Source of the DNA: Paramarasmius palmivorus
Lineage: Eukaryota; Basidiomycota; Agaricomycetes; Agaricales; Marasmiaceae
Direction: 5' to 3'
Assembly (NCBI GenBank): GCA_037176845.1
Contig: JAYKXP010000034.1
Coordinates: 474,215-538,214, forward strand
DNA: 64,000 nt
Numbering within the stretch: the first letter of the stretch is position 1; each line of letters begins with the position of its first letter. Below the pieces are notes generated by a model. It did not search any database and had not been told where the DNA came from. It worked only from the letters and a program-made list of their open reading frames with translations. Below are positions 23,721-52,144 of this stretch, piece after piece. Both the position numbers and the translations under genes were made by a program.

Positions 23721-24329
23721 TTAAATGCCGGGGATGTTTTCAGCCTGAAGCGGTCGATTTTGTCGACGTAAAGCATGGTGGGTTTCCAACGCGCGTTCCA
23801 AGGCGTTATTCTCAATTTCAGCCTCAGCCTGTGACAGAACAATTAATTTTCAGTTTCACTCATCCGGCGGGTAAGCGCGTCGACGTACCAGTATACGCCT
23901 TCGAAGCTTTCCTGCCTTCCAACGAATACCTAGAGGCTCTTTCCACCGCGTCCATATGAGAAATCCTATGTATTCCTTCCACGATGCCTCATCGATTGTG
24001 TAGCATGCTTGTTTTAACGTGGAGATACGAGCCTTGAGCCTAAGTTTATGTCACGTATGCATTAGTGAGATAGCGGTGATGTCGACCAGAATAAAAGACC
24101 TGTCACACGCTTCCTCCAGCTGAGAAAAAGATGGCAGAGGGATCTTTTTATTTTGGGTGGCGACGAGTTCCTTAATTTCTGTACCTAAGGCATCCAAGGC
24201 GTCGAGATCGATGTATCCGAGAAGCCATCTCACAGAGATGATGAATAAAAGGCCGATACCTAACCACAAGGCATACGTGCTGGAAGTGATGTCTTCGGCG
24301 ACTGAAATGGGGGTAGCGGTTGGAGGCAT
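23721..24329 (-). CDS. small membrane protein, array copy A (intact, 162 aa)
   Basis: Exons 24100-24329, 23889-24039 and 23721-23828. Exon 1 encodes one hydrophobic helix (about residues 20-37, ALWLGIGLLFIISVRWLLGY), then an acidic/helical stretch ending LEEACD. Exon 2 is exactly 151 nt and encodes the family core (CYTIDEASWKEYIGFLIW, WKEPLGIRWKAGKLRRRIL). Exon 3 begins AEAEIENNALERALE, a charged helix. Intron phases are 2 and 0. Likely topology is a membrane-anchored protein with a Trp-rich, possibly membrane-apposed second segment and a charged C-terminal helix. The family is not recognised. This is the first member of the same-strand array and lies 0.3 kb from the intact tRNA-Thr. Confidence 0.85.
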
Positions 24330-25242
24330 CGAGATATCAACGAGAAATTGAAGTGTGACAGATTTTGGTGGGAAAAGTGAATTATAAAGGCCGAAGAGGG
24401 GATCTCCTACGCCCGATTTTGTACCACGATTTAATGTAGGCCGTGATAAAGTTTTGACCCTAAAACAGCGAACAGAGCTGTCAAAAACCTTGATTTGGTG
24501 CGTGTGTATCGCTTGAGTAACAATTTGGCCGCATTCTCCCGCCCGATTGGATCCAAATCATCTCAGGAAGATGTTAGAAAAGATGGTTAGTCAATTTTTG
24601 CTGTAACGAATACAAAAGAGCTGTTCAATTAAGCTTCCGCAGCACCACCCATCACTCCTCTTTGACGGGAGAATCCAAAAGAACCCTCGAGAATTTCGAG
24701 AATCACCGGGCGGCAGTGATCATCTTCGGAAATATGGGATCTGGCACGTCCCTAATGCATATACACGTCGTGTATGAGTCGAGAATATGTGTTGAATACC
24801 TGAATATTGAACAACGGACAACGGCTTATGAGAAAAATCAGTAAAGCCAAAAGGGAGGAAATTACTTACCTGCACTTACTTGCTGGCCTTACTGGAGCCG
24901 GCCGAACAGTGTCCCGTACCATCAAAGCACGAACCAGGGGGTTGTCCGCAAGCGGCATAGAGAGAACAGTCACATCAGAAGTTATCTTGGTTGTCACCCT
25001 TCTAACCAAATAACTACAAGCAACCCTTTTCTCAATGGAATTTTCCATGAATTTTGTCCCCCAAGTTCAGCACTCCAGCCAACCTTTCACAGAGCGATTC
25101 TGTCATGTCCCTGAGAATTTCAACCCTCGGCTCTTCAACTTCCAAGTCGATTTCTTGTCGCTGAACACCCTCGAGACTCCGTGACAAGCGAGGTACTTAT
25201 CTTCGCGGGACGCGCGCTTTCGAGTAAGTATAATTTGCATCG

Positions 25243-25385
25243 ATGCTTCCAGACGCCAATCTAGCGTCGACGCCTCAAGAGCTCCGAAGGCCGTGGCTAT
25301 GGGGCGCTTTGATGGGCGCTTGTTTCCTGGCCCTCCTTTTGCTATCCGTCTTTGAATTCACGTGGAACTTGATTAACAGATATAG
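25243..25385 (+). other. possible exon of an unrecognised membrane protein
   Basis: An ATG-initiated stretch reads MLPDANLASTPQELRRPW, then a strong hydrophobic helix (ALMGACFLALLLLSVFEF), and ends at a GTAAGC donor in phase 2. Downstream the sequence still looks protein-like in another frame (ILSNLPGWPRVILL and, near 25690, VPPEYHLVPCALIFGVHAF), but I could not join a model. The paralogous segment at about 26170 has lost the frame. It is probably a decayed gene unrelated to the array family. Confidence 0.4.
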
Positions 25386-25890
25386 GTAAGCCATGGTACC
25401 CTGAACGATATGAGGCTCATCAATCGAGCGCAATACCAAGTTCAAAGCAAAGAATACTGTCTAATTTACCTGGCTGGCCTCGTGTCATCCTACTGGTGAC
25501 TTGATTCTCTTCACCCGAGCACATCGTCGCTCTACAGAATTTGTTGGATATAAGTATTTACACTTAATCTCTTGCTGTTCCCATCCCTGCTATCTATTGA
25601 CGACTATCGTCCCGGACTTTCAAGATAAGGCTACTTAATGGTGCACGAGCATAATAGCAAGGACTCGGACATTGATCCGTATGTGCCTCCAGAATATCAT
25701 CTTGTGCCATGTGCCCTAATATTTGGCGTTCATGCATTCCATGCTCAATTCGTTGCCACACGACTCTGGCCTGTGGGGAGTAATAGATTTTACTTACCGC
25801 ACCCCAATGGATGGGAAGGCGTCTAGGGACAAAAATGTGTTTCAAGAATCGTCGGACACCGATAAGTTCAGAATATTAGTCATGAGATCC
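25290..25890. repeat. local duplication, copy 1 (diverged)
   Basis: Aligns by eye over most of its length with about 26170-26790. Shared blocks include GAGCGCAATACCAAGTTCAA against AATGCAATACCGAGTTCAAC, TCACCCGAGCA, and the end block GTCATGAGATCC. The similarity stops abruptly at GAGATCC, where copy 1 continues directly into a half-tRNA. Confidence 0.6.
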
Positions 25891-25892
25891 TC

Positions 25893-25955
25893 TTCATAGC
25901 CGAAGTTTCCCATTGCCATACTAGTGAAGCGCTCTACCGCTAAGCTAAAGGGGGA
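25893..25955 (-). pseudogene. 5' part of a tRNA-Thr(AGT) with intron, 3' part missing
   Basis: On the minus strand it starts TCCCCC, keeps the D arm, the anticodon stem (CTTCA...TGAAG) with AGT, and an intron almost identical to that of the copy at 21073. After AAGAGG the T arm and acceptor 3' strand are replaced by duplicated-segment sequence. Confidence 0.75.
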
Positions 25956-26169
25956 CGATGCTTGCAAACTCATTGACACATATCAGTCTACAATGGGACA
26001 CTACAACGAGACTGCTCTGTTTGTGAACCATTGAAAGGGCCTTTTCTCCACTTCCGATGCCAAGCGCTCCAAAAGATAATACTCGTGGGGGTGGGATCGA
26101 CCAAGCAACGAATTCACGAATTCACGACTCTTGCGTCGTCAACAGCAGACTCGGGTCGAGGTGTGGATG

Positions 26170-26790
26170 TGTCAGTAGGCGCTTTCACGAGCGCTTGACT
26201 CTCTTGCCCATCTTTGTGCTATACGACCTTTGAATATGCCAGCAGATATATTCAGGGATGTGAACGCACTCCAAAGCCGATGTATACTCCGGATAGTGAG
26301 ATGGGACTTGTCCCACAAATGCAATACCGAGTTCAACATGAAGAATAATTATGGCCCAGTTCACTTACTTGAACTGAAGGTTTCACTTGATGCTGCTTAG
26401 CGGTCTCATTTCTATGGAATCCAGCTGGCCCCGAGTCATCCAGGCGTCGTCTTGGATCTTTCGTCACCCGAGCATCTCGCAGGTCTGCAGAATATACTGG
26501 GTATACATGTACATGTCCTTGTGTGACTGCCTACTGTTCCCTGGCATTTGCCGTATATGGATTCCATGCTCAACGGAATTCTACGCAATACATCGCCATA
26601 CGACAGTGACCCTTGAGGAGTAATAGGATTAGGTTACCACATACCCCTACGCGTTTCTTACCGCCCGTCGATGTTGTCTTGCCCGTCTTTTAGTCATCGA
26701 CCTTGAAGGGGAAGGCGTTTGAGTGCGGAAAGATGTTCCGAGAGTCGTCGGTCACCGATCAGCTCAGAATACCGGTCATGAGATCCAAAA
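26170..26790. repeat. local duplication, copy 2 (diverged)
   Basis: Partner of about 25290-25890 with many substitutions and small gaps; its reading frames are more broken. It lacks the tRNA fragment at the corresponding end. Confidence 0.6.
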
Positions 26791-26899
26791 TGGGCTAGCG
26801 TAAAACATGAGGTACTATTGTATCAGATACCAAATCTCCATTTCCATACAAATGTGGCGTCAGGAAGATTAATGTTGGACTGGTCGTGCCACCGTGACA

Positions 26900-27493
26900 T
26901 CAGTCCGTATGGATGCGATACGGTCTCTGAACCGGACTATGTTGTCGCGATGCCAGATAGCGTTCGAGAGCCGCTTTTTCGACCTCAGCTTCGGCCTGTC
27001 GCAACTATCAGAAAAAATCTGTTATCCAGTCGAGTGAGGCATACCAATATTTCTCTTCGGAGCCTTCCTGCCTGCCAGTTAATAGCAACAGGCTCTTTCC
27101 ATCGTCTCCATAAAATGAAGGAAATGATCGATATCCACGACGCATTGTCGATGGAATAACACACATATTTGAAGTCGGATAGCCGGTGTTTGAGTCTGCG
27201 GAAATTTCAATGAGTAGGCGAGAAAAGAATGCAGAGGAGCTCAAATACCCAAAAAGTGAAGCCTCAAAGGAGCTTTTGGATGGTAGACATAATTTTTCTC
27301 GCTGGTCAGTGAGGAGATCGTGTAGATCTGAGATCAGGGACTCCAGATTGTCGATATTGGTATATTCCAAGAGCCATTTGAGTGGAACGGCAATGACGGT
27401 GGTTAACACCAAGCCAATAGCGATGGCGTTGGCATAGTTCGTCTGTGTGGCTGATAGTGCTTCGAGGGACATGGTGGGGGCTGAAGAAGGCAT
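26900..27493 (-). CDS. small membrane protein, array copy B (intact, 163 aa)
   Basis: Exons 27249-27493, 27045-27195 (151 nt) and 26900-26995, with phases 2 and 0. The N-terminus is MPSSAPTMSLEALSATQ, then a long hydrophobic stretch (NAIAIGLVLTTVIAVPLKWL). Exon 2 carries VCYSIDNASWISIISFILW and WKEPVAINWQAGRLRREIL; exon 3 carries AEAEVEKAALERYLASRQ. The start is placed at 27493 to match paralog lengths; an in-frame ATG at 27577 would add 28 residues and one at 27454 would shorten it. It is diverged from the 40-46 kb copies at most positions outside the core but has identical gene architecture. Confidence 0.85.
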
Positions 27494-28045
27494 GGGAGTG
27501 GGGTTAACATGAGGCGCTGTCACCTGTGAACTGTTTTCTGGGGAATTGAGTGGATACAATGATGGACCTGAATTCAAGTTGGCGTCTAAACACAGCCCAG
27601 AATGATACTCTGCGTCGCGTGGCTCGCTTCGGAACCCAATGAATACATTGCACCGGGAGAAGCTGATGCTTACGTCTGCACTCCAGGTGTGGGGTTGACA
27701 TCCTCAAGACGCTGGAGCTGAACACCGTTCAGCAGAATGGATATACAATATTGTTATTACTCGGTGCATAGATAAAGTTTTGGTATATCCACGCCTTAAC
27801 GCCACAAACAAGACTGTGGCGCATTATTTCCTAGAATGGCACGGAAGAAGCCGGCAGAGCTGTAAAATTGAAAATCCGAGCGCACTTGGCGAACATTCAC
27901 CGAGGTCGCACGATTCTATGGACGACCGCAAATAAAAGATTAGTTTGGTATCATCTGGCTTTCTGCTACTGCTACATTTTCTAGATCCGCCACCAGGAGA
28001 CGGTATTTACCACTGTACAACACGGATACATCGAAACTATCACTA
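27494..28045. other. intergenic gap, no gene seen
   Basis: Between array copy B and the 3' end of the BTB gene. No coding structure is visible. Confidence 0.45.
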
Positions 28046-29220
28046 TTATGCGGAGAACTGCTTCCATACAGGAAATCCTTCAATGATGCGCTCGAGTGCG
28101 CCTTGTGCTTCCGTCAAGCGAGCCCTTGTCGCTGATGACACCGCCCAATCCACGATTAGAGCACGATCTAGTGCACTCCGGACGCACGCCATTGTTGGCA
28201 CCGCTTCTGCTAGTAATTCCGCCTGTATTCTCCTTACCAGTGAGTGGCGGTCCACAGCGTTGACTTGGTCTTTGACAGTGGTGATATAGGTCTTATGGTC
28301 ACGTTGCCACACCTCCCGATACTGTGTCTACAATGAATGAGCGGATGCGATATGAATTTTGGCACGAGCAACAAACGCACCTAGATAGCGTAGACACTCG
28401 GATACCCCCTACATTGTATCACAGCGTCTTTAAGCGATAAAACCATTGAGTGCCTCGCAAATTCGTCGATTCCAGCAAGATTGCCATTCTGAGCTTTGTA
28501 ACAGACGGTGGCAAGCGCATTGCTAGGAGAACACTTTCCAAGGTCCCTGAGGATATTAATTAGCTACTCCATGGATAATAGAACCATAAACTACATACTC
28601 CATGGCCTTTCGACAAGCCTGTATAGCCAACCTATTCCCATACTTCTCCGCCACCGTCGAAAATGCCATAATCGCTCGGGTAGATTTCGAGCGCAGATCT
28701 GGCTGTTCTGCGTTGTGCGAGAATTGTAGAAGAAGATGAAGCGATTCGGAACGGTCGTCAAGTTTGACGTGTGAAGGCTTTCCGTCTGGCTCTGGGGAGA
28801 CGATTTCGAGTGGCGGGAATCCTTCGTTAAACACTGCGAGGTTTCCTTTGTGTGAACCAAACTTTTTGTCATCGGAGGTATAGAGGACAATGTCAATTGG
28901 GAGCGTGCAACCCAGTACTTTTAATAGATGTGTTGTGAGCCTTTGATCAGAAATCGATTGGGAATCGACGAACCTCGACATTGTTTTGACCAATCGCGGC
29001 ATATCTCTTCATACTGTTCCTTTGACATTTTGAGTACCAGCTGAAAGGAAGCTTCTAGTGATTGGCGAAGAGAGTAAGCGAAGAGGACGATGAGAATTAA
29101 GCTAAATAGTTTCTCCGAAAGTGACTGAGAACGCTGAGAGTAAGTAAACCACGGCGTGACAATAAAAAAAACCAAAGTCGACAGTAGGGATTTGGTTTCT
29201 GGCCCGGGGGTAAAGTTCAT
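28046..29220 (-). CDS. membrane-anchored BTB/POZ-domain protein, with in-frame stop at an exon border
   Basis: Exons 28974-29220, 28595-28917, 28381-28533 and 28046-28327 keep phase. Exon 1 encodes two hydrophobic helices (about residues 11-25, SLLSTLVFFIVTPWF, and 38-50, KLFSLILIVLFAY). Exon 2 resembles the mushroom BTB fold (VLYTSDDKKFGSHKGNLAVF, then FPPLEIVSPEPDGK, then RSESLHLLLQFSHNAEQPDL). BTB domains mediate dimerisation and Cullin-3 recruitment. Exon 4 has the usual QYREVWQRDHKTYI helical tail. The last codon of exon 3 is TAG, immediately before the GTGCGT donor. The product would therefore stop at about 240 residues unless this is a sequence error or a different donor is used. Transmembrane anchoring is unusual for BTB proteins. 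The gene sits inside the small-membrane-protein array on the same strand. Confidence 0.65.
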
Positions 29221-30930
29221 TGTGTAGTTCCAGCATAGATGCACGAGCTTTTATAACCGCTTGCCGCGGCGATGGCCGAGATGAAGCTGCATAGAGGACT
29301 GCACAACGATGGATGCGTGGAGTCATGTGTGATGCGCGTGTTTGAAAGTTTGAATGCAGCAACTGAGGTGTGCGAACTAAATTGGGATAAGCTGACTGCC
29401 CCCTCATGCATAGTCGAGACCGCCATCACCTTGAGGAGCGCAGTGACTGTCTACCAAAATATCCCTGTGGGGCACTGCCGTTATCCAATCAATAGCAACT
29501 ACCCCGGTACCGGTCTGTCGTTGTTGCTTGCTCCTGCTTTCACATTCCTTGAAGCACGGTGCAATGTCCGAAAATGGAAGGCCCTGGAGAGGATGGACCC
29601 ATTCATTCTTGCAGTTCCATCGACCAGTTAACTCCCGCTTCACAAACTTAATCAGATGAGTGCAACAGGGTGGGTATTGCGCTAGGTCATATCGTTACAC
29701 AGTCGTTGTTCATCACATCAAGCGTTATTGTCACGTATCTATACAGCTTGATACACATCCATAAGCCTTGATGGTGAGGGCTGTGAGGACTCTGGCTTAG
29801 CAGTGAGAAAGTGGGTTGTAGCATACACATTATTCCGGGTTTCGTCGAATGGATTGACCTAGGGCTTCACTCTCTTTTTTTACGAAGCATGGCTATAACT
29901 AATAAATACCAACTATACTATAGCACTTGCCCTTGCCGAGGAAACAACGAAGTGAATATCACCAACTGACCCTACAGACCTGAAACGATAAATCGATACG
30001 ACTTTTCCTTGACGGGACGCATGACGGATGCAGATGAATTACATTTACGATAGTGATTAGTCGTGAATTGTCTTCGCTGATACTAGTGAATAAGATCTTA
30101 TCAAGTATTGGACAGTTCCAATCATGAGCAGAGACATAAAGGGACAATGACCGCCTAAAAGTGATGACAGCTCATACGGGGACACTAGAAGAAACGATAA
30201 GGACACACCTATACACATTTGTATACGGAAGCAAGTTGGAGCAAGAGCTGAGACTGTAAAATATGTGTACGTACCATGTTTTCCAAGAGGTATTTTTATG
30301 AGGGTTGGAAGATGTGGTACATAGATATAAACAGGACATTGGAAGCGATCAAGTGAGAGCTAGAAGAGGCCCACATGGAGCGACAGAAGACTGGGCGCCA
30401 GAGCGGAGTTTTCAGTACTGTAACGCGTAGTTATGGCCGATGCGGACCTGACAAGAGGATTCATTTCTTTGTTATCGAGAGGTACAGAGAATTGTCAGAG
30501 CATTGGTCGGCCGTTGAGAGGCAACAGGACTGCGGTGATCTAAAGCCACGTGTAATAACAATACCGGCGGCATGTTCTCACAATCAAAAGTGCATACGCT
30601 TCAGAGAAAAGGCCAAGTAATGATTTACCTGTGACCTAAGAGTATATAGATGAACTCCATTTATATACACCCTCAGAGACCATGAAGGCACGACTATGCA
30701 TTGGCCTGAGCCATGGTTGCCATGCAGCTGTACTATGAAACACTTAGCTACCCGCGCCTTTCAGGAAAGCAAAGTCTGTTGAATAACTGGACCGAACTTG
30801 AAGAATGTGGATATGATATCAAGAGTGTGAATGAAAGGATTTCTAATGAAACAGAATATATGGCTGCAGATGTGACAAAATATGGGCCGGGAAAGATGAG
30901 CGTTGCGAACATTAGTGGGGTATTGTGTTT
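29221..30930. other. 1.7-kb gap with a short dispersed-repeat piece
   Basis: No gene. About 30360-30620 contains a diverged piece of the dispersed segment seen at 34.8, 47.3 and 47.9 kb (TGGAGCGACAGAAG, and CACGTGTAATAACAATACCG with CGGCAT). Confidence 0.45.
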
Positions 30931-31519
30931 TTACGGAGTCGAAATTGGATCGGCTGGTATCTGTTGTCGTATTGCATAATAACGTTCAAGAGCTTGTGCC
31001 TCTACTTGAGCTTCAGCCTATAGAAAGACGTAGAAGATGATGATTAGATCTATAGTCCTAAGTTCTGGTGGAACTGACCAAAATTTGCCGCCGAATTCTT
31101 CCTCCATCCCGCTGTATCCCAAAAGGTTCTTTCCATCGTCTCCAAAGGAAGAAGCTAGCATATTCTATCCACGATGCGTTATCCATAGAATAGCGAATAT
31201 ACTTGAAGTCATGAATGCGCTTTTTGAGTCTGGGAAATTACTGAGGTCAAGTAAACCCAATGTAACTGGAAGAATACCGAGAGACAGCTTCCACAAAGTG
31301 AAGTTTCGAACGCAGACGAGCCCTCTCGTGCTGATCGACAATGAGATCACCCAAATCAACGACCAGGGAGTCCAGCCGAGTAAAGGATACATATGCATGA
31401 ATCCACCTCATAATGGAAATGCAGAGAATGGCGGCCAAGAGTTTAAGTAGCGTCGCATGGCTTGACGTCTCTGACAGAGCTGAAGCTGTTTGAAGGGATG
31501 TAGCAGCAGAAGAAGCCAT
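30931..31519 (-). CDS. small membrane protein, array copy C (intact, 159 aa)
   Basis: Exons 31278-31519, 31079-31229 (151 nt) and 30931-31017, phases 2 and 0. The N-terminus is MASSAATSLQTASALSE, followed by the hydrophobic helix LLKLLAAILCISIMRWIHAY and a VVDLGDLIVDQHE segment. Exon 2 core: RYSMDNASWIEYASFFLW, WKEPFGIQ, GRIRRQIL. Exon 3: AEAQVEAQALERYYAIR. It is closest to copy B in style (RRWKEP). No stop or frame problem is visible. Confidence 0.85.
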
Positions 31520-32572
31520 GGGATATTGTATTCCAAGAGCACCCTTCTTAATACTTGTTGTATTTAATTAGAGGTCACCGGGGATTGTGGGGTTCTTGTG
31601 AAAAGCTGTCGACACACCAACGGCTTGTACCTAACCGGAGGTCGTGGGCAGAATGGGAAATATCGTCACTAGTCAGTGAAACACTGTGATATCTGCCACT
31701 GTGGTAGCATCGTTTGAATAATTCGGCAGAGATTGAGACCCCAAGAACCAAACCTGTGCTTAGTGATGTTCTGGGTAAGGACCTGTTCTCTGATGTAGCC
31801 GAACGTCAAGGTTAACTGACCGTGAACTAAATACGCTGGACGCATATACTCACAAACACAAACAATACCCACAAACACTAACATCTAAGAAGCGGCATAA
31901 CCCCGAAAATGGCACTGTGATATCTTGAGGTCTAGGGCTATATGATGTGGCGTTTTGCCCATATATAGCGCCCAGAGAAGCGCACTGTGCTATCGGCGGT
32001 CATGGTGAAATTTGGAATCAACGTTATGTATGATAAAGAGTTCTTTCAGCCAAGCAACTGGATGCTCATGGCACCCGAGAGCTGTATTCCGTCCCTTGAA
32101 TTGTTTCCACAAGATCCACTGCAGGGTTGATGCTATGACGCTCGTTCGGCTTTCGGGAGCATCGAGGAGTGTCCTTGAATGACCGGAAGCGCCGAGCGAT
32201 GGACCGTAAAGGCATTTGTTACAGGAACCTTACCTTTATCCGGAGAACCTTATAAAATAGGAAAAGAACAGCTTTGCTCCAGCAGAAGAATGCGTGAGAC
32301 GGTAAACCGCTGGCAGCAGCCATGGTTGTTAGCCACGTGGTCGACAGATATCAATTTCTCATGCCGTGATCTAAACGCGGTTGGAGCGCGTTGAGCGCTA
32401 AATACAATAGCATCCAGAACAAAATAATACAAAGCACAGAGACAATGGTAGATAGCAAAGAGATATGTGAGACTGAGTAATTCATGGATATAGCAAAGGT
32501 AAGGCAGATCTGTTTTCATGATTTTGGTACAGAGACGTGGAAAAGGATGTGCACGGAAAAATGGTAGACATT
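31520..32572. other. intergenic gap including conserved 3' flank of copy E
   Basis: 31520-32320 shows no coding structure. About 32330-32572 is the conserved sequence found downstream of seven array copies, with blocks such as AATACAAAGCACAGAGACAA and AGATAGCAAAGAGAT. Confidence 0.5.
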
Positions 32573-33165
32573 CTAAATATTGAGTAAAACGTGGTCTTGA
32601 AAGGGAAAATTGCATCGACACGAGGCCCAGTAGTTCTTCACTGCGTGTTCCATCGCGCTCTGCTCAACTTCAGCTTCCGCCTACGTTGAAATTAACACTG
32701 TTGGTTGGATGCGGGAAGTTGTATGAGGACGCACCAAAATTTTCCTTGGAAGCTTTCCCGCCGACCAATGAAGTGCTAGAGGTTCTTCCCACCAAGTCCA
32801 CATAAAGAATCTTCCATGAAGCTCGTCAATCGTGTAACGTGCGTGTTTGAGATATACGGTTGCTAAGTCTGCATTGTAGTATGATTTAGTTGAATAGTTC
32901 GGCAATCAGCGGCATTGCAATTGACAGAACCATAATACCTATCGGAATCTTCCTTGAATCTATGAAAGGACAGTATAAGACCTTTCTCGTCATATTCGAC
33001 GACGAGCTCCTCGATACCCATAAGGAGAGCATCCAAGCGGTCCAATGAGGTGTATCAGAGGAACTACTTCAGGAACACGATGCCCACAGGTGCAGTGATT
33101 AACCGTGAAGCATTTATGCTTGCACCGAGCTCAATCACCGAAAGGATACTTGCAGATTGGGTCAT
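32573..33165 (-). pseudogene. array copy E (dead small membrane-protein gene)
   Basis: All three exons are traceable. Exon 1 starts MTQSASILSVIELGAS but has two stop codons where the intact copies read Trp and Arg (FLK-stop-FL-stop-Y against FLKWFLRY). Exon 2 has frameshifts just before KHARYTIDE and a deletion after it, then recovers FFMWTWWEEPLALHW and AGKLPRKIL. Exon 3 is open (AEAEVEQSAMEHAVKNY). Both stops are explained by single transitions, one of them at a CpG. About 0.65 kb upstream is shared with dead copy K. Confidence 0.85.
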
Positions 33166-33224
33166 GGAATAGCGGTGAGTAGAGGCATGGATTAACGACA
33201 TTTCAAACGCTGTTGAGCCCCGTG

Positions 33225-33850
33225 GGAAAACCATGACGACAGCTCTTTCGGCATCAGCTCAAGCGCTCAAGGTCAGAGAATTCAAAGCAAAGAGAGGACA
33301 ACAAAACCCATACCTAGATGATTGCAGGCTCCAGGATAAATCAAATCTTCGAGGGAAGCAGAGAGGGAAGATATCGTTTAAGTGAAAGCGACCAAGGCTT
33401 ATATATATGCACACGTCCTTAAGAAACAGTTTGGCCTAGATGCCCCAGGAATACTGAGTAGAGATTGAGAGGCATGTTTGCTGAGTGGAGATCATTCAAG
33501 TGCTTCGTTTCCGAGCAAAGACAGAGTGGTATGGATGTTGGGCGTTATCGAGTCTCTCTACGTCAAGGGCAAGATTTAGACTCTCCATAAAATGTTCCAA
33601 ATCTAGCGGCAAGAATGTGCTTTACTGCGAGGAAGTGAGATAAGAGGTGACTGCGGCCCGGTTATGGTTCCTAAGAGTAGTCAGGTTCGACAAGTGTTCC
33701 GCGAATACGAGTCGAAGAGAGCATTCAGCGGTTTGATAATGAAAGACAGACGATCCAGCCGACAGTTCTGATGGACAGAATTCGTTGTTTGATTCAGAGA
33801 GACATAACCGGATGATTGTAGCCTAAAGGCAGCGGAAATGAGCACGGAAA
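33225..33850. repeat. upstream segment shared by array copies E and K (E copy)
   Basis: Matches 43840-44370 by eye, with blocks such as CATCAGCTCAAGCGCTCAAG, AAGCAAAGAGAGGACAAC, GTCCTTAAGAAA and ATCCAGCCGAC...TTCTGATGGACA. Together with the gene and its 3' flank it forms a duplicated unit of about 1.5 kb. Confidence 0.75.
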
Positions 33851-34195
33851 TATTTGCAGAAACGATATGTAAGCGCCTAAACCAATGTAAGAGTGAGCCG
33901 TACGAATATACGGGATGATATTGTACATAACTTAAATTTGAGTCAAGATGCCTAAGTCAATGTACTTATGCCGATTTGAGTAATTCTGCCCTATGAATGT
34001 ACGGCGAAAGGCTAGGCTCACAAAGGAAACCCTCAGTCACGTTCTGAAGGCGAGGTAGGAGCACGAGGATCTTGGAATGAGACTAGGCGAAAGGCTGGAG
34101 AACTCGAAGATATCACTGTCCTTAATGAGGATGTATCTACATATCGAGTCGTGTCAGCGCCTCCTGAGTATAAACGAGTTCAACTCAAGTCAACC

Positions 34196-34297
34196 TCCAG
34201 ACAAGCCTAAGTATCTTCAAGACCAGGTCAAGTAAAGTCCAAGTCATACTTACGTTCAAGTAATATCAAAGTCAAGTCAAGTCAAGTTTGAGTAAAG
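34196..34297. repeat. AAGTC-rich simple sequence
   Basis: Degenerate tandem CAAGT/AAGTC units, including a clean run GTCAAGTCAAGTCAAGT near 34271-34287. Related short AAGTC pieces also occur near 33950. Confidence 0.7.
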
Positions 34298-34799
34298 AAT
34301 AGCATGCATTAACATGTTTTTGACGAAGAAAGCCGGAGAGTATTTGTGAAGGAGCCGTCGATAGTGTCTTGAACGTGATGGAGATTACTTAGTACGGGGA
34401 TGCCGGAAGAAATGATAGCGACGTACCTATATCCTAACTTTGCACCAGTAACAGTGGAACGTACACGGAGTTACTGTTATGCTGGAAGACGGGGTACATG
34501 AAAACGAAGGGCGGACTCGAGAATGGAAGTGATTGAGTGAACCAGAGGATAGTTGGCATGGTGCGGCAAAAGGGTATTACCTGTCGAATGAAAAGTTTCA
34601 GGAGAATAGCGCATGAGTATGTTGGGTATATCGATGAATAGCAGAGATCGCTTTTTGGTTGACAAAGGTGGAAAGCATGCAGTCGTTTAGCTGAGAATAT
34701 CAGGGTATTGGACGGAGTCATTTAAGGGTTCGGCCAGACTGGGATGATCGAGGCCTGAAAGTGTTGGGCATCAATAAGGCAAACGCCAGAGGACGATAC

Positions 34800-35190
34800 A
34801 AACGCACCTGCACCCTTACTTTACACTAACTCAAATAAGGAGTGAGTTATCCTGGGAGCTCGGACTACAATGGATTTGTTCCATGTTGTAAACGGAGACG
34901 GTGTTTTGGCGGAGGCACTGGAAATGATCGACATAGCCTGGATGGAGCGGCAGAAGAGTTCAGCTGCCTAGGCGGACGTTTCAGGACCATAACACACGGG
35001 TGGAGCACAAGACGAGAGAAGGAAGAATTAAAACTGGACAAGAGTCCTCGTCTGCTCGTTGTCAAAAGGCAGGGAATCGATACAGGTGGAGAGCATTCAA
35101 TCGTCATGGCGTGGACCGCGATCACCGAAGATCTTGGACTCACGTGTGATAAAGATCCCGGCGGGATCTCCATTTGGCCTTACCAAACAC
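34800..35190. repeat. dispersed segment R2, copy at 34.8 kb
   Basis: Begins near ACTCAAATAAGGAGTGAG and contains GGAGCGGCAGAAGAG, CTAGGCGGACGTTTCAGGAC, GTGGACCGCGATCACCG and CACGTGTGATAA-GATCCCGGCG. The same blocks in the same order occur across 47250-47440 and 47880-48195, with shorter pieces near 30.4, 40.0 and 46.1 kb. Confidence 0.75.
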
Positions 35191-35265
35191 CAAACAGATA
35201 ACATATCGTAACGCAGTACATCTCAGACGCATAGTACATGGGGCGAGCATATAATAGGTTTAAGG

Positions 35266-35861: not shown

Positions 35862-35916
35862 GAGATGAGGGAAAGTAGTATACTGACAAACGTCAGAACG
35901 AAAGTACCTTATATTC

Positions 35917-39433: not shown

Positions 39434-40886
39434 CTATGTTGAAGTTATGATAATAGTTCGCGGGAGGAGCTGTGTAGTTCCCGGGATTAGAATCCCCAGT
39501 AGATATATAGTAGTATCCTCAGGATAGATAGATAGATATACACACACTTCCGTTATGGTACTTGATTCACACTCGCCACGTCCTTCTTCCCAATTACGGA
39601 AGGGATCTAGTAGCGCCGGGTCATGAGCTGTGCCCTGTGCATCCCCTTAGCTGCGAGCAGCTGATTTGGAGGAGATGGGATATTGATGAGCTCAGAGTGC
39701 ATCAATTTGAGATGCACGAAGCGGACGTGTATGCTAAAGCTAAGCTTACTCCACGCTGATTCCCCGGGCCAATGTTTTGATTTGAATACAAAGATGGTGG
39801 CGCTAGTTAGTATGTAGAAAAGAAACGATGCCGACACACATAAACTCCCAGTGTGCACCAAGTGCTTTGGTAAGTGGACACGATTTTTGTGGAGTATATC
39901 AAAATGCTAGTAGGCACAGCTTCCTACCATGTCCGTGTTTTATTCGTAGAAATAAAGGAGGAGGGATGGAAGCAATCAAAGAAGGCTAGATGGAGCTGTA
40001 GAATAGTATTGGCTGCATAGGCGGACGTTTTAGGAGTATAACGCATAAGTGGGGATTGAAGAAATAGAGGAGAGCCTTCGTTGATCATCGTCCGAAGATA
40101 GTAGTCCTGTCGTACTGGTCGTAAAGAAAGAAAATAACATCGAAGGGGTTAGGTGATGATAAATAGGAGTGATGTAGCGTTGGGAAAGGCGATGTGTCGG
40201 TCGGAGACGAACAGCCGAGATGGGCTACTAAATCAATGGAAAGACCTCGATTGCTGGATGTGCTGTCTTCCTTATTCTTTTGTTATTCTTTGCAGATTTC
40301 TAGACGGTACGAGGATATGTAGTCGTGAGCAATGAAAGACACATCTGCTTGAGCTCAGAGTCCAGTCTCGTAGCTTCCCAGTAGCGTAACGCGGCCTTGA
40401 AATTTCGAGTAATGTATCCCAGTTTGCGCTACCCCTTTGCAAACTGAAACGTACCTTTCGCTACTAGTTTGAAGTATTTATCTTTGACTGATGTCCGATC
40501 TGTCAGCAATTGAAGTGAATGCCAAAGCTGAACCTGAGCAAGGAGAGATATACGAGTGGATAAGAGTCTAAGAGTGAATAAGAGTCTAAGAGTGAAACGC
40601 TACATGTCAGCAGTGGTCATCGTCGGTTGAAAGAAGGTTGGGGTGCTCGTGACCGATTCCATTTTCCTACGCCGTGACCGAAATAGGCAAGCGCGTCGAG
40701 TGGTTGGTAAATACGATAGCATTAGCAATTCCAGAGCAATGACACAGAGGCAACAACGGATAGCAAAGGGATGTGCGAAACTGATGGGTCTGTAGATATA
40801 GCAAAGGATGGCATGTATGTTTTCGTGATTTCGGTATGGAGAGGTGGAAAGAATGAGAGCGAGCGCATGGGAAAATGATAGTCATC

Positions 40887-41475: not shown

Positions 41476-41995
41476 TGGATAGTGGGTGCTCAGCGGGAGG
41501 AAGCAAAGCCGTGAGAAAGTGGAGCCTCGACGCGTCTCTGTTTGTACATGCTAGGGTCGTGAACCCTATTTACCCACCAAACAACAACACCTCAAGTACA
41601 AACAAAATCACGCACATGGCGAACGCGGTCACGGTATAATTATTAATATAGTATAATTCACAACAGCCAAAATTTGAGAGCCGCGGAGTGTTCCGAGAAC
41701 CAAGTCACAGTTCCAAATTTCCCACGTCACGGTCGTGGTCCAAACAGCGCGTTGAGCGCTAACCACGATAGCAGCGTTTCGAGAGCAATTAGATATCAGG
41801 GAGCACAGAGACAATAGAAGAGAGCAAAGAGATATTCAAGACTGAATGATTTAGTGATATGGTAAAGGGAAAACATGGAGACAGCAAAAGAAAAGAGAAC
41901 AGTAGAAGCAAGTAGCCCATGGCTATACAAAGGGGAAGTAAATTTCGGTACGTGGCTGTTGAAAAGGGTGCGGTAGTGTAAAAAACGGTAACACT

Positions 41996-42572
41996 TTAAA
42001 CGTTGAGTAAAGCGTGTTTATGAAGGGGTAGGTTGCGTCGACGTAGAGCACGATGATTCTCTAGCGCGTCCCCCTCTTCTTCACCTTCCGCCTATGTCAA
42101 ATTCAACACCATTGTTTAAGTATGGGAAGTTATTTGAGAACGCACCAGAACACTCCTTCGAAGTTTCCCCGCAGCCCAATAAATTGCAAGAGGCTCCTTC
42201 CACCAATTCCATATAAAAAACATGGTATAAGTCTTCCACGAAGCCTTGTCGATAGTGTACCATGCGTATTTGTGAAGAGATACACGTCGTTTGAGTCTGT
42301 TCTACGATTCAGTGAACCAATCACATCACAATCATACCACAGTACCTGTCGCAATACATATTGAATATAAAAATGGACGGTAGAAGACCTCTTTCGTCGT
42401 GATCGGCGATGATATCCTCGATATCTGTGCGGAGAGCGTCCAAGCGTTCGAGCGAGATGTATCGAACAAGTTGCTTCAAAAGTACCATGCCGACGAGCCC
42501 ACCGAGTAACCAAGAAGTAGTCGTACTTGTGCCGAGCTCGACCATGGAAAGGATGTTATCAGGTTGGACCAT
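41996..42572 (-). CDS. small membrane protein, array copy J (intact, 157 aa)
   Basis: Exons 42346-42572, 42146-42296 (151 nt) and 41996-42091, phases 2 and 0. N-terminus MVQPDNILSMVELGTST, hydrophobic helix TSWLLGGLVGMVLLKQLVRY, then LERLDALRTDIEDIIADHDE. Exon 2 core: WYTIDKASWKTYTMFFIW, WWKEPLAIYWAAGKLRRSVL. Exon 3 has lost a few residues relative to I (AEGEEEGDALENHRALRRR). Its acceptor region has two usable AGs; the one giving phase 2 was used. The conserved 3' flank lies at about 41700-41995. Confidence 0.88.
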
Positions 42573-43031
42573 GAAGCTACAATGATGGGGGGATAGACAA
42601 GCATATTTGTACTTCAAGTTAAACGTCAAACAATTTTGACTGGACACCACATCACTTTCTATGGCTGTGTTGTCTCGAGAATGTAGCCAGAAGCCGAACG
42701 ACCGGCTTCTGAGCTTTACAGCAAGCATACGTGTCATTTCAGCATGCGTGTCATTTGGAACTCACTGAATCTCACGATCACCCTCCAAGTTTCCCACGTC
42801 GTGATCTAAATAGGGTTCGAGCGCGAAATACGATAGCAGTAGCAATTCCAGAGCAATAGTCTAATACAAAGCACAGAGACAACAGTAGATGACATGCGAG
42901 ACTGAGTAACTCGTGTATATAACAAAGGGGAGGGTTTTTAAGATTTCGGTATATAGATGTGAGTGCATCGGACAATGGCGGACGTTCTAAAAGTTGAGTA
43001 AATTGCGCGGAGATCGCTAATACTAGTTGTG

Positions 43032-43587
43032 TTAAACGTTGAGCGAATGGTCTTCCGGAGGGGTTGCATTGCGCCTACGTAGAGCACGAATGTTCTCCAC
43101 TGCGTGCCCTAACTCATTCTTCGCTTCTTCAGCTTCCGCCTATGTCAAAGCTATCATGATAGTTTTCAGCCATGGTTACATGAGGAATGCACCAGAACCT
43201 TTCTTCTAAGCTTTCCTGCGACCCCATGTATTGATAGAGGCTCCTTCCACCGATTCCACATGAAAAAGACGATATATGCCCTCCAGGAAGCCTCGTCGAT
43301 CTCGAACTCTTTGGTCTTTGAGTTAGTGAAATATATAATACCATGAAAAGTAAGGAATACCTATCACAGGCTTCCTCAAAAATACCAACGGAGAGAAGAT
43401 GGTATTTCTTGTGTTGATCAGCGATCATGTCTGTGAGGTCGGTACTAAGAGCATCGAGACGGTCGAATGAGATGTATTGGAGGAACCACTTCAGAAACAC
43501 GATGCCGACGAGTGCAATGATGAACCATGAAGCTTTTGTGCATGCACCGAGCTCGACCACCGAAAGGATACTTGCAGATTGGGACAT
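43032..43587 (-). pseudogene. array copy K (dead small membrane-protein gene)
   Basis: Exon 1 is fully open: MSQSASILSVVELGACTK, SWFIIALVGIVFLKWFLQY, then LDALSTDLTDMIADQ and FEEACD. Exon 2 is 131 instead of 151 nt, with a 20-nt loss removing the start of the core. The expected acceptor reads CTA in place of CAG, so no phase-correct splice exists. The rest of exon 2 (EIDEASWRAYIVFFMW, WKEPLSIHG, AGKLRRKVL) and exon 3 (AEAEEAKNELGHAVENIRAL) remain readable. Decay looks recent. Shares upstream and downstream sequence with dead copy E. Confidence 0.85.
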
Positions 43588-45134
43588 GGAGCCATGGAAA
43601 TGGTGAGACATGAAAGGGTGACCAGCGCCTAAATATTAGCTCCGTTGCGGCCCAGCGATAACTATTCCAAGGCCCGTAACGGAGCCATATTTGTACATTT
43701 ATACTATATACAGGAGGAGTATTTAAAATACTATTTTTTCGACTTTCTGTCACGCTTGGTCACGTGATGTCCTGGAATCCGCTTGCGGCCTACCTTAAAA
43801 GCTGTTGAGGCCTCCCACGTGGAATACTTATAGAATACGGCAGCTCCTTTGTCATCAGCTCAAGCGCTCAAGGTCGCCACCGTTGAAAGCAAAGAGAGGA
43901 CAACGAAAACCATATCTAGATGGTTTCAAGCTCCAACCTAAAGAAAATCTTTGAGAGTAGGAGAGAGAGGGAAGGTAGTGTACAAGGGAAAGTCACAAGG
44001 TTAGATAATGACATGTCCTTAAGAAATATGTGTTCAGTTTGCCCTAGGTGCTGCAGAAATAGTAGAGATTCAGAGGATTGTTTCCACAGAAAGACAGTCG
44101 TATAGATAGCGAGCGTGAACGAATCTGATCACGTCAAGCGCATGAAGTCTAGCGTCATGAAGGAGTTTGATTGCGAAGGAGATAAGAGATGGCCGTGAAC
44201 CAGTTTTGGTTTCCAAGAGTAACCATGTTCGAGGAGCGTTGAGGGGTTTGATGATGGAAGACAGACGAGTATCCAGCCGACGATTCTGATGGACACAATT
44301 CGCTGTTTGATTAGGAAACATAAACAGATGATGTTTGCCTAAAGGCCAAAGGTACACAACTAACCGCAGAGATACTTTCTCGTTACTGGTTATGGACAAA
44401 TACGACTAAATGAGATTATGATGTATGCCGGGCCTACCGACTACCAATAGGTTTTTGTGGTGCAGGTGTTTGAATGAAAAGAAGGATGAGTCGGGGGTGT
44501 CAGGATGCAAGATGGACGGTGAGCGAAAGTCAACATTGATCTTGAGATGTTGTACCGAGTCATCATCAACATTAAAAAGGATCCGTACAATGAAAAATGG
44601 CGAGTATCTTCACACATGTATACTCGAAATGAAACCAGCGATTCCCGGCCCAAGGGGTTGGAGGTGACCTAGTGTCAGATAGAGTGGAAAAGAGATTTCA
44701 GGGCCATGAGTGGGTTTGACAGATCAAAGAAGAGCATGCATTGTGGTACCCGATGCCAGAAGAGGCGCTGAGAGTGCATGAAAACGTCAGCTGGCGGCGG
44801 ACATCATGGTGGTTTGATTCCGAAAGAAGGCCGGGATCCCACGTGGATCACGATTACCGTGACGGATTCCAAGTTTCTCACGCCGTGATCTACTCGAGTA
44901 AACATGGTGCATGCGCGTCGAGCGCTAAATAGGATAGCATTAGCAATTCCAGAGCAATGAGATGATACAAAGCGCAGAGCCAACAATGGATAGCGGAGAG
45001 ATGTGCAAGACTGATGAGTTTATAGATATAGCAAAGGATCGTAGATATGTTTCCGTGGTAAGATACGTGGAAAAGGACGCGAGCGAGTGCATGAAAAGAA
45101 GATAGTCGTTCTGAACGTTGAGCAAAGGATGTTC
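43588..45134. other. array spacer with E/K-shared segment and 3' flank of copy L
   Basis: No gene. 43840-44370 is the segment shared with 33225-33850. About 44870-45134 is the conserved 3' flank of copy L. 44400-44860 has short frames only. Confidence 0.5.
43840..44370. repeat. upstream segment shared by array copies E and K (K copy)
   Basis: Partner of 33225-33850, same block order, with several small deletions in this copy. Confidence 0.75.
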
Positions 45135-45705
45135 TTAAACAGGAAGAATGCGCCGACGTGAGACTCGGTGGTTCTCTAATGCGCGTTCCAACGCGCTCCG
45201 CTCGATTTCCGCTTCTGCCTGTGTCAAATTAACATCAACATAGTTCGCAGACAGAGAGGTGTATGTATAACGCACCATAACTCTCCTTCTGAGCTTTCCA
45301 GCAGCCCAACGAATTCCTAAAGGTCCCCTCCACCAGTTCCACATAAAGAACGTGATATAATTTCTCCAACAAGCTTCGTCGATCGTATAACGCGCACGCT
45401 TGTGTAGAGATATGCGCCTTTCAAGGCTATCCTGTGGTTCAGTGAACAAGCTGTAACGTCAACGGAAGTCCACAATACGTATTGCACTCCTCCTTGAATT
45501 GATTGAAGGACGGCAGGAGACCTTTCTTGTCATGGTCGGCGACGAGGTCTTCCATATCCATGAGGAGAGCGTCCAAGCGATCGAATGAGATGTATCGGAG
45601 GAACCACTTCAAAAACACCATGCCGACGAGTCCGCCGATTAACCATGGAGTATGCGTACCAGTACCGAGCTCAACCACTGAAAGGACGTTAGCAAGTTGG
45701 GCCAT
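45135..45705 (-). CDS. small membrane protein, array copy L (intact, 153 aa)
   Basis: Exons 45479-45705, 45276-45426 (151 nt) and 45135-45218, phases 2 and 0. N-terminus MAQLANVLSVVELGTGTH, hydrophobic helix PWLIGGLVGMVFLKWFLRY, then FDRLDALLMDMEDLVADHD. Exon 2 core: RYTIDEACWRNYITFFMW, WWRGPLGIRWAAGKLRRRVM, with GP where most copies have EP. Exon 3: AEAEIERSALERALENHRVS then RRRILPV. The start lies in a good context (GCTCC-ATG-G). It is the last array member before about 6 kb without a copy. Confidence 0.88.
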
Positions 45706-47249
45706 GGAGCTGCAAGTAGGGAATTGACTGGAATGGCCTATTGAATACTAAATAGTCAGTACAGGTCGGAGTTCGAGCATCATTTAATTTCGGTAGTCAC
45801 ATGGTTCCCGTTCTTGAAGCTTCGAGAACTTGCTATTTTTGGTGTTTCTCTCGTCGCCTCTCTCGTCGGCGATGCGATCACGTGACAGGAGACTTTTCTG
45901 GTCCCGCCGATCTGCTGCCGTATCCTCAGGGATTGCCTACAAGCTTGCTACCTGGGCTCACTCATTACGCATCCAGTTGGAGTATGAACTAATTTCTGAT
46001 TCAACGTACTATAGCCGATCAAGACGCGAGAAGGCACAATTTCATACCATGTTTGGCCTGTAGTCGTATAAACAAGAGGATTTGCCCTGAGTGGCAGCCT
46101 GAATGGAGTGGTAGCTGCATAAGCCGCGGACGTTCCAGGGGCCTAACTCATGGGTATGATGCAAAAATGGGATCGGTGGAGAAACAAGATGTAAAACTAG
46201 TAGAAGAGAGTTTTAAGAATTAGATTAGGTCGTACTTTCAACCTTTCTTAGCACCGATTCTGATGAGTACTTGAGCTGTGCTGGCAGTTCGGACTACGAT
46301 GGGTGTTTTACGTTTGATCCACACCCAGTCATTGTTGCAAGGTTTACGACCAGCACAGTTTCTCTTGACGGTCTTACCACATTGAGCTGATGCCAGAGGT
46401 CTTCCTGTAGCATGCTGTACCTACTGGCAGGCGAGTCTTCTAGACGGGCCAAATGGGCTGGGATGTGTTGGCTGTCGTCAAACAAAATTGGGAGTTCACT
46501 TTGCAAGATTTTCAGGACACTGTCCTCGATACCTTCGAATCTACGTGGACAACGTCACAGTCCAGAGTTCGTTTGTCTCTCTGGGGTTGATATTGGTGTA
46601 GGAATTGGGTGATATCTACGCACTGTACGCACCCGTGGTCCGAGTCTCTCAACCTCCAAATTTGGCGTGTCTAGAGACGAAAACGCCCCTCTGGCTCAAA
46701 CCAATATCCATCCTCACTCTCATCCCCCAGTCATAACCCACATTGACTGGAATAGCTCTGCCGTTCGACTCTCCGAGCGATATGTACTGAGCTCTGGGAT
46801 TGCAGTCGCTGCGTTGCCATGCTACCTCTACCCTGTTTCAAGTTGGATCAGCTGTTTCGAACAAATTGATGACAGTGCCGATCAATTTGGTATATCCTGT
46901 ATTATGGTAGTTAGTAGATACCCGTAGCATGTACCTATATTCTGTCGGAGTAGATGTAATACGGAAACCTGCACTGATCGAGGTCGGACCACAGCACAAT
47001 ATTATCCAGGGTACTTGAAGGAGGTATTTTTGCGGAGTAGGAGTGATCGAGTGAAGCTGAGGCGAAAGTTTCAGAGGCAGAACATAAGCAGAATCAGTAA
47101 AGAAGCTGGAAAACAGCATTCATTTACTCGTCATCAGAAGTCAGGGGATCCTCGAACAGGCAGAAAGGATTCGATGTCTGGAGAGAGAAACACCGGATCA
47201 TGGCCGAAAGAAAAGACAGGGAACTATAAGAAATGATTGAGACGTACCT

Positions 47250-47440
47250 AAACCTTGACTTTACACCAACTCAAATAAGGAGTGAGCTCAGACTACGATG
47301 GATGTGTTCCACGTTCTCCAGGGTTATTGTTGGCAGGTGTGAGAAGCTTTCTCGGTGGAGTAGAAGCAATCAAGTGAGCGCCAGAAGCGGCAGAGGAGTA
47401 TTAGCTGCCTAGGCGGACGTTTTCGGGACGGACACGAGCA
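47250..47440. repeat. dispersed segment R2, copy at 47.3 kb
   Basis: Starts with ACTCAAATAAGGAGTGAG, followed by CTCAGACTACGATGGATGTG and the CTAGGCGGACGTTTT block, in the same order as at 34800-35190. Confidence 0.7.
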
Positions 47441-47879
47441 AGATTTATAGAGAAAGAGAAGTAAGACAGCGCGAGAGTTTTCGTTTTTGTCGGAATCGAT
47501 AGGGGAAACATCTAGTCGTTGGGCAGAGAACAAAGTGATTGAGCGAGAAGGTAGGTTGGTGGTCTGAACAATATTTCAGGCGAAGGGTGCAGTCGTTTAC
47601 GTGCTTCAGAGAATCATGTAGCGTTCGAAAGGAGAGCGAAAGATCATGACTTGATGGCTTGAACGTGATCAACGTTAGTATGGAGAGATTACACGAAGGG
47701 ATCACGACGCACCTATAGCCCTACTTTCGGTTATCGAAGCGGAGTTGGCATTGAAAGTTTGAACTCTCGAAGGTTGAAGTTGCTGTCAGGGTATAGCAGT
47801 AGCCGAGAGCGTAGCCATCGCTGGTCCGGTGACGAGAGTATGATATACTGTAAAGTTAGAGACAAAATTCACGATTTCC

Positions 47880-50430
<2,551 letters not shown>

Positions 50431-51587
50431 CCGTTGTGGTTTTGGTATGGTTTTTGTTGTCTGTGTGGTTTTCGGTGGTGTTGGGTTTCGGCGTTGGTTG
50501 GTGTTGGGCGATGGGAGTGGTGAGGAAGGCACGGGGAAGAGGAGAGAAAAGAGTGGTAAATACCAGATAATAGTGAGATACCCTGTGTAGGATAGGCGAG
50601 GAACGAAGAGATTGTTTCTGGAATGGAGTTGGGTGTCGTCGCGATGTTGGGCGTAGGGGGAGATGAACACGAGTGCGGGATGGCAATTATAATCATCGAG
50701 TGAACACCTGAAAACGAAGCTAGGAATTCTCGCCACATTACTCTAATCGATGCCGAATAGAATCGTTGAGAACCGTTACTCACAGGACGCCTATGGACGT
50801 GAGGCAGAACGTAATGCTTTCAGGACATTTCGTTGATGAGAAGTCAAAACGGTTGATGTGGGAGTACGGTTTAGAAGATCTTCATTGGGTTTACTTTATA
50901 CCTCCAACCGCACCATTCTTCTTTGAACCGGGACCCTGATAAGCGAGGAACGAAGAACAGGACCAGGGGTGTAGTCGGTTGATCGATCTTTCTTACTATA
51001 ACGATGCGCTAGATAGGTTTATTCGGAAAATACGACGAAAGAATACAGGGCGGGAGAATGAAAGTCACGGTTTAGAACAACTTCGCTGTCTTCATGCCTC
51101 CTAAGCCGTCGAATAGAGGCTTGCACGATTCATCTTCTAGATTTAGCTGGATAATTAGATAGGCGATGATGCGTGGTGTACGTTTGGCGGCGCTTCAAAT
51201 TTTTATGGTGCGGAGTGGCTCGCCGCCTGTAGATGATGGAGTACATAGCTAGTAATCTCGCGGCGTGTCATCGCTTTGTGGAATTAAAGAAAAGCCTTAT
51301 CAGTGATGCGGTTGATTACACGCTTCCGGGACTAGAGCTTTTCTCTCGATCTGCGCATACCGGTGCCATTGTGCGGTACTCCAAACCCATTCCAAGTTTA
51401 GCGCCCATTCAAAAGCGCTGAGAACAGTGACCATCGTGGGTGCACAAGTTCAAAACGATAAATTCTGTATAGCACAGTCAATTACACACACCGGTAAGGT
51501 TGATGCGAGCGCACATTGGTTAGAGGTGGCTTTACCGAAGACAGTACTATAAAAGTCACGGTTTAGAAGATGTTATACACTGTCTTT
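50431..51587. other. 1.2-kb gap holding a truncated array-type gene start
   Basis: No complete gene. 51060-51130 repeats the promoter-proximal and start-codon region of the gene at 51588, listed separately. Otherwise short frames only. Confidence 0.5.
51060..51130 (+). pseudogene. truncated duplicate of the start of copy M
   Basis: AAAGTCACGGTTTAGAA, CTGTCTT(C/T)ATGCCTCCTA and GAGGCTTGCACG appear here in the same order as at 51553-51652, but the internal part of exon 1 is missing. The shared sequence includes the ATG, supporting 51588 as the true start of copy M. Confidence 0.7.
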
Positions 51588-52144
51588 ATGCCTCCTACTG
51601 TACCTCATTATGAAGAAGCCATCGCTTACATTGGAATGGAGGCTTGCACGTCTACAACAGCCTTCACGGTCCTTTTCCTAGCTGTTTCGATGGTACCTGC
51701 TTTGAAATGGTTCTTTTCGTACATCTCTGTCGAACAATTGGACACTGTCATCTCCGAAGTGCGCACTATCATGAACGTTAACGATCAGTGCGTACGCTTT
51801 GGGGCTCAGATAACTCGGTATGCTGGTCTTACCGCCCACGATATGAATCTTGACTGACGATGGGTTCAAAGGCTTGAAAGACGTCTATCTCAATTCAAGT
51901 ACCTGCGATACTCCATTGATAATACTTCATGGACGACATACATCTATTTTTTCCTCTGGATCCGGTGGAGTGAACCTGTCTTGTTACGTTGGGAAATAGG
52001 AAAGGTTAAACGCGGTATATTGGTATGTCACACGATGAGTTTTTTTGCGTGTACTGCGATTTACCGTAGCATTAGGCTGAGATTGAGTTGGAGAAAGGTG
52101 CACTTGATGCTTATCAAAGGAATCGACGTCGTAGGAACGCATGA
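51588..52144 (+). CDS. small membrane protein, copy M (intact, 149 aa, opposite strand to the array)
   Basis: Exons 51588-51817, 51872-52022 (151 nt) and 52076-52144, phases 2 and 0, the same architecture as the array at 23.7-45.7 kb. N-terminus MPPTVPHYEEAIAYIGMEAC, hydrophobic stretch TAFTVLFLAVSMVPALKWF, then SYISVEQLDTVISEVRT. Exon 2 core: RYSIDNTSWTTYIYFFLW, RWSEPVLLRWEIGKVKRGIL. Exon 3: AEIELEKGALDAYQRNRRRR. It is the most diverged intact member, lies beyond the kinase gene and is convergent with the MFS gene 82 bp away. Its start resembles copy A (MPPT). Confidence 0.87.

Follow-up and report, generated by a model that had tools for sequence, protein, structure and literature searches.

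A stretch of 64,000 nucleotides from Paramarasmius palmivorus, a mushroom associated with palm and cacao (bases 474215-538214 of contig JAYKXP010000034.1, here C34; hereafter the window) contains eight intact three-exon genes for a family of small proteins with a predicted membrane helix. The assembly has 68.3 Mb in 393 contigs. Gene models were taken from a script listing the ATG-intron-intron-stop combinations in the window, and members were also sought with exon profiles built from the intact window copies. Seven of the intact genes lie on the minus strand and one (g51588) on the plus strand (Table 1). In all eight genes, intron 1 is in phase 2, exon 2 is 151 nucleotides long, and intron 2 is in phase 0. 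An array of eight such genes, mostly duplicated in tandem on one strand, had been proposed in an original prediction from the letters of the window. All eight were recovered as intact spliced models where that prediction had placed them, and its range of 149-164 residues is exactly that of the models. At least four family members were also predicted independently by NCBI, three in the window and one on another contig, C205. VNI00_009399 is identical to the g40887 model over all 161 residues, and VNI00_018014 equals the 160-residue model of c14577 on C205. VNI00_009397 is the g26900 protein from its second Met (156 of 163 residues), and VNI00_009400 starts at a downstream Met of the g41996 protein, covering 148 of its 157 residues.

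Four of the twelve copies in the window are not intact (at 32.6-33.2, 37.3, 39.3, and 43.0 kb). Thus, the earlier count of at least four dead copies stands as a count of non-intact copies, but g43032, which has lost only nine residues of exon 2, is not necessarily dead. The exon profiles gave the intact copies 32.8-112 bits, scores that are circular because the profiles were built from those copies. Six pieces of three decayed copies outside the profile set scored 15.4-49.6 bits, whereas none of 20 shuffled windows scored above 12.1 bits. Since even the weakest of these remnant pieces outscores the shuffled sequences, chance is excluded as the source of the copies.

All the intact window genes share one protein plan: a predicted transmembrane (TM) helix, a Y-x-I/M-D core with invariant Trp residues, and a basic end, combined with the phase 2/phase 0 introns. 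The hydrophobic N-terminal helix claimed earlier is predicted in 8 of 8 intact proteins (best 19-residue Kyte-Doolittle mean, 1.40-2.13). The tail before it is nearly uncharged or slightly acidic, and Lys or Arg stands at the end of the helix, which suggests that the N-terminus is outside and the C-terminus in the cytosol. By hydropathy alone, each of 16 sequences has one strong Kyte-Doolittle segment (second-best mean, 0.55-1.28), and a family protein has at most two hydrophobic segments. The core reads Y-x-I/M-D-x-x-W ... F-x-x-W-x-x-W-x-x-P and is followed by a basic cluster. Its Trp-rich nature, also part of the original prediction, is borne out by the alignment, in which Y, D, W, F, W, W, P, G, and R are invariant. 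The charged C-terminal helix looks coiled-coil-like by eye.

Does the family belong to any known one? No significant Pfam match was found for the eight proteins at E up to 10 (the best, E 0.014, was to an unrelated family) or in another scan of four proteins, and none was found in NCBIfam (four proteins) or among the PDB sequences. The family is thus still an unrecognised one after the domain-database check that had been advised for it. The g51588 protein entered the alignment of invariant positions, the eight-protein Pfam scan, the PDB search, and the first protein search as a 139-residue version, and the 149-residue model was used afterwards. Protein searches returned five different proteins, namely four from P. 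palmivorus and one exon from a JGI metagenome (P0002). The latter is 81% identical both to g30931 (over 81 residues) and to the C205 version of g30931 (over 59 residues). The recall of these searches was poor; one failed to return VNI00_009399 although the query alignment included that very protein, and another missed VNI00_009397. Since known members were missed, the family may well be more widely distributed among mushrooms, and the negative results of the protein searches rule out close relatives only. A distant lone paralogue on contig C60, whose splice sites were read by hand, keeps the core. A match on C155 (E 0.24) was dropped as a member, as the five long frames listed there show nothing family-like. 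IMG/VR and GTDB contigs yielded no distant relatives, as expected for a fungal family. The literature on P. palmivorus (also searched as Marasmius palmivorus) and on Marasmiaceae held no account of the family among the matches listed. Nor did the papers listed on meiotic drive and spore killing in basidiomycetes deal with it, judged by their titles and the opening of their abstracts. The family has apparently not been described before.

From window position 47082 to the end, contig C205 runs collinear at 94.6% identity. The divergence is 12.5-14.7% at 47-48 kb (14.7% at 47 kb). From there to 54.5 kb it is mostly 4-12%, but it dips to 0.6-1.0% at 50.5-51.5 kb before returning to about 7-9% at 51.5-54 kb. 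Values of 0.2-2.2% follow at 54.5-59 kb, and beyond 59 kb all ten half-kilobase bins show 0.0%. C34 and C205 most likely represent the versions from two nuclei of one dikaryon, because C34 ends in the identical stretch while C205 runs on. The presence of STE3 receptors on both C22 and C100 would fit a dikaryon. The identical end at 59-64 kb may also be a collapsed contig overlap.

The two haplotypes differ in the array itself. In the shared interval (window 29.7-52.2 kb), C34 carries 10 family copies, of which 6 are intact, 3 have decayed, and 1 has the exon-2 deletion; C205 carries 6, of which 3 are fully intact. The presence/absence comparison proposed earlier, made here between the two haplotypes, thus shows a difference in both copy number and integrity. 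No C205 partners of g23721 and g26900 were seen, but C205 starts in retrotransposon-like sequence (by eye), and this result therefore does not mean that the other nucleus lacks them. One C205 gene, c14577, is flanked on its 3′ side by sequence of the 45135 position; there, diagnostic sites divide 26:2, 31:0, and 25:2 in three 60-base bins. Its coding region is mostly 40887-like (for example, 16:0, 25:5, 18:6, and 19:1), with one coding bin pointing the opposite way (5:7). Judged from these sites, c14577 is a mosaic of the 45135 position and 40887, produced by exchange between paralogues.

Table 1. Copies of the family in the window and on contig C205. Positions are those of the window; exons are listed in the order of transcription.
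Feature	Contig	Position	Strand	Exons or state	Protein (residues)
g23721	C34	23721..24329	-	24329-24100, 24039-23889, 23828-23721	162
g26900 (NCBI VNI00_009397, second-Met start)	C34	26900..27493	-	27493-27249, 27195-27045, 26995-26900	163
g30931	C34	30931..31519	-	31519-31278, 31229-31079, 31017-30931	159
Decayed copy	C34	32573..33165	-	exon 1 split in two pieces, exon 2 incomplete	
g35266	C34	35266..35861	-	35861-35617, 35564-35414, 35364-35266	164
Family remnant	C34	37320..37448	-	exon 2 only	
Family remnant	C34	39344..39430	-	exon 3 only	
g40887 (NCBI VNI00_009399, identical)	C34	40887..41475	-	41475-41249, 41200-41050, 40994-40887	161
g41996 (NCBI VNI00_009400, downstream-Met start)	C34	41996..42572	-	42572-42346, 42296-42146, 42091-41996	157
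g43032	C34	43032..43587	-	without first nine residues of exon 2; same deletion in C205 version	
g45135	C34	45135..45705	-	45705-45479, 45426-45276, 45218-45135	153
g51588	C34	51588..52144	+	51588-51817, 51872-52022, 52076-52144	149
c10654	C205			intact	
c11685	C205			intact	
c14577	C205			intact	160
c12731	C205			exon-2 deletion, same as g43032	
c8766	C205			5′ end cut off, where SRPK-like fragment begins	
c20818	C205			out of frame near start; one invariant Trp lost	

The intact genes are under purifying selection. The ratio of nonsynonymous to synonymous divergence (dN/dS) between window genes and their C205 partners, two of which are damaged genes, is 0.37 for g30931, 0.28 for g35266, 0.26 for g40887, 0.45 for g41996, 0.35 for g43032, and 0.25 for g51588. 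The upper bootstrap limit is below 1 in four of these six pairs. A seventh, non-allelic comparison (g45135 with c14577) gave 0.29. The synonymous divergence (dS) of the allelic pairs is 0.19-0.32 in four cases and 0.04-0.07 in two. All 36 paralogue pairs have a dS of at least 0.73, and 17 of them are saturated; thus, the paralogues are old. The other 19 pairs give a dN/dS of 0.15-0.34. Along the protein, dN/dS peaks in the N-tail and TM helix and reaches its minimum in the C-terminal part (pooled allelic values, 0.51-0.52 for the N-tail and TM helix and 0.24-0.30 for the rest). Among 20-codon windows (eight per set in three sets, alignment columns 1-160), none has a dN/dS above 1, and the maximum is 0.73. 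Positive selection as the cause of the divergence was therefore rejected.

Is the array more diverged than its surroundings? In the same block, the neighbouring MFS gene has a dS of 0.277 and a dN/dS of 0.10 (186 codons), and exon 2 of the SRPK gene has 0.294 and 0.05 (59 codons, in the sole stop-free frame of three tried). SRPK exon 1 has a dS of 0.056 (84 codons). Two MYND-like genes farther out, in the low-divergence zone, have a dS of 0.024 (dN/dS 0.26, from 13 differences) and 0.007. Since the dS of the array is close to that of its neighbours, the array is about as diverged in sequence as the block around it, yet more rearranged, and its constraint is below that of MFS and SRPK. Five genomic probes were compared for a diverged partner. 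One had a 97% partner (C10/C343), one was laden with repeats and had partial 88-94% matches on C87, and three (two left of the array and one on C20) had no partner. The C10/C343 pair is patchy as well, with 0.0% blocks and local rises to 8-22%. Thus, a diverged block is not the rule among these few probes, yet it is not peculiar to the array. The outward fall of divergence, from 14.7% at 47 kb to 0.0% from 59 kb, was once taken as proof of balancing selection. This reading was withdrawn because the fall is not smooth, the neighbours are equally diverged, and C10/C343 is similarly patchy.

With a chance that I would put just short of even, the locus is an ancient array, shaped by birth and death, of genes for small membrane proteins that have a Trp-rich core and are maintained by purifying selection. 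The common intron phases, the allelic dN/dS values, the age of the paralogues, the core kept on C60, the copy-number difference between haplotypes, the c14577 mosaic, and the NCBI predictions all speak for it. The family, so far known from the P. palmivorus lineage only, would have expanded in tandem, with birth and death of copies and exchange between them. Birth-and-death evolution is a general concept for lineage-restricted tandem gene families. The array resembles such families in its old diverged paralogues, remnants, inter-copy exchange, and haplotype copy-number differences, and differs in that its protein plan matches no family in Pfam, NCBIfam, or PDB. The product would consist of a short N-tail, one TM helix with a Lys/Arg end, an amphipathic linker, an aromatic segment lying on or dipping into the membrane, a basic cluster at the end of that segment, and the charged coiled-coil-like helix. 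Hydropathy and charge suggest that the N-tail is most likely outside and the remainder in the cytosol. The proteins may serve as adaptors anchored in the membrane, which would oligomerise and use the conserved core to bind partners, with several diverged versions of the adaptor being maintained. That selection has preserved the intact copies makes it probable that most of them function.

Some observations weigh against this reading. In 7 of the 8 intact proteins, the best hydrophobic segment is followed by 15 residues of net acidic charge, a finding that weakens the proposed orientation. The Wimley-White octanol scale ranks the core segment above the N-terminal one in 5 of 16 sequences, and the core segment is therefore possibly a second TM helix. 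The dN/dS interval reaches above 1 in two of the six allele pairs (g41996 and g43032). The array represents an apparently undescribed, maintained family of membrane proteins whose gene content seems to differ between the two nuclei of one mushroom.

The original prediction saw in the array the pattern of conflict or recognition genes. The strong divergence of the paralogues and the broken copies were indeed found, but the divergence by itself lends no support to conflict, as dN/dS is below 1 and dS is close to that of the neighbours. Recognition or drive is a minority possibility. An allorecognition locus, whose polymorphic membrane proteins distinguish self from nonself between mycelia or nuclei and whose diversity is held by balancing selection, appears unlikely. 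In its favour, the array looks very different in the two haplotypes (10 versus 6 copies and a mosaic gene), which match completely at 59-64 kb, and P0002 is a third version of g30931, although it may belong to another species. Against it, the N-tail and TM helix evolve fastest, yet with a dN/dS below 1, and the dS of MFS and SRPK exon 2 and the zero blocks of C10/C343 suggest, in a comparison of two haplotypes, that neither the level nor the patchiness of the divergence is special to the array. The structural difference of the haplotypes favours nonself recognition a little, and the lack of excess divergence or positive selection counts against it. According to passages of a 2021 paper, nonself recognition is poorly understood in basidiomycetes, and limited studies point to 3-5 loci, some perhaps highly polymorphic (PMC8229728). 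If recognition were demonstrated for the array, it would bear on this process. A specific form, in which the proteins come in a separate set from each nucleus and their cytosolic helices assemble with self and not with nonself, is less probable still. It would give somatic incompatibility of mushrooms a molecular candidate. Fungal het or somatic incompatibility loci likewise have strongly different haplotypes within a species, but the array proteins have no known Pfam domain and the array is about as diverged as its neighbours. No significant Pfam match to a het-associated domain was found in the array proteins, a weak test since het-type genes are varied. Linkage to mating type was rejected; among the best candidates on the assembled contigs, STE3 matches lie on C22, C100, and C64 and Homeobox_KN matches on C5 and C6, with none on C34 or C205. 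With gene models, allele pairs, and measured selection at hand, recognition and ordinary turnover can be tested against each other.

A killer meiotic driver family acting like the wtf genes of fission yeast is very improbable. The wtf genes have broken copies and a variable copy number, and the array, which is heterozygous, shares with them multicopy membrane proteins and these two traits. The original prediction had drawn this likeness as one of style, not of sequence. According to PMC10721834, wtf products are multi-transmembrane proteins made from toxin and antidote transcripts, and the antidote tail bears PY motifs. In contrast, hydropathy gives the array proteins no more than two hydrophobic segments, none of 15 family models has a PY motif (L/P-P-x-Y), there is no Pfam match, and dN/dS is below 1. 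Thus, they fall outside the wtf family by motif and family model, and might drive by other means. Could the array instead be decaying, largely non-functional, and persisting by chance? Damaged or incomplete copies make up 4 of 12 in the window and 3 of 6 on C205, and the dN/dS of the array is above that of MFS and SRPK exon 2, though like that of the MYND-like neighbour with 13 differences. However, eight open reading frames (ORFs) are kept in the window, and most of the allelic intervals and all 19 paralogue ratios with a finite dS lie below 1. Simple decay is improbable, about as much so as the self-assembly of helices described above. The least credible alternative is that these are ordinary mitochondrial proteins, as in the UniRef labels of P0001, P0003, and P0004 (ATP synthase protein MI25 / F0 subunit 8). 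No ATP synthase family match was found in Pfam or NCBIfam, and the MI25 label seems to have been assigned automatically, prompted by a TM helix with a charged helix after it. The maintained birth-and-death array is preferred to all of these.

Some other features of the locus were noted. About 100-300 nucleotides past the stop codon are common to the copies of one subgroup, including decayed ones (for example, window 40655-40886, 41701-41995, 42784-43031, and 44880-45134), with no common reading frame by eye. A fourth exon hidden in this flank was considered and dropped, as insertions and deletions break any common frame. A fragment at C205:9277-9546 that shares 73% similarity with the SRPK kinase gene (window 48359-48634) abuts the truncated 5′ end of c8766, marking a rearrangement breakpoint. 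An element at window 34935-35177 and 47860-48200 and at C205:17067-17368 has at least three matches in the genome, all at the array locus. Shorter matches of 38 nucleotides to the same element lie at 40.0, 46.1, 47.1, and 47.4 kb.

Another multicopy family, which I take to be MYND-finger-like by eye, flanks the array on both sides (window 859-9680, 12534-13811, and 55498-59128) and continues upstream on C34. Left of the array, window 17500-20183 has transposase-like ORFs, presumably of the DDE type. Two Rfam tRNA genes lie in opposite orientation at window 21073-21165 (plus strand) and 23296-23386 (minus strand). Dozens of similar stretches occur genome-wide, and they are perhaps a tRNA-derived repeat. 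Downstream of the locus, at C205:42380-69324, several ORFs share a motif that is presumably the one typical of UstYa/DUF3328 proteins.

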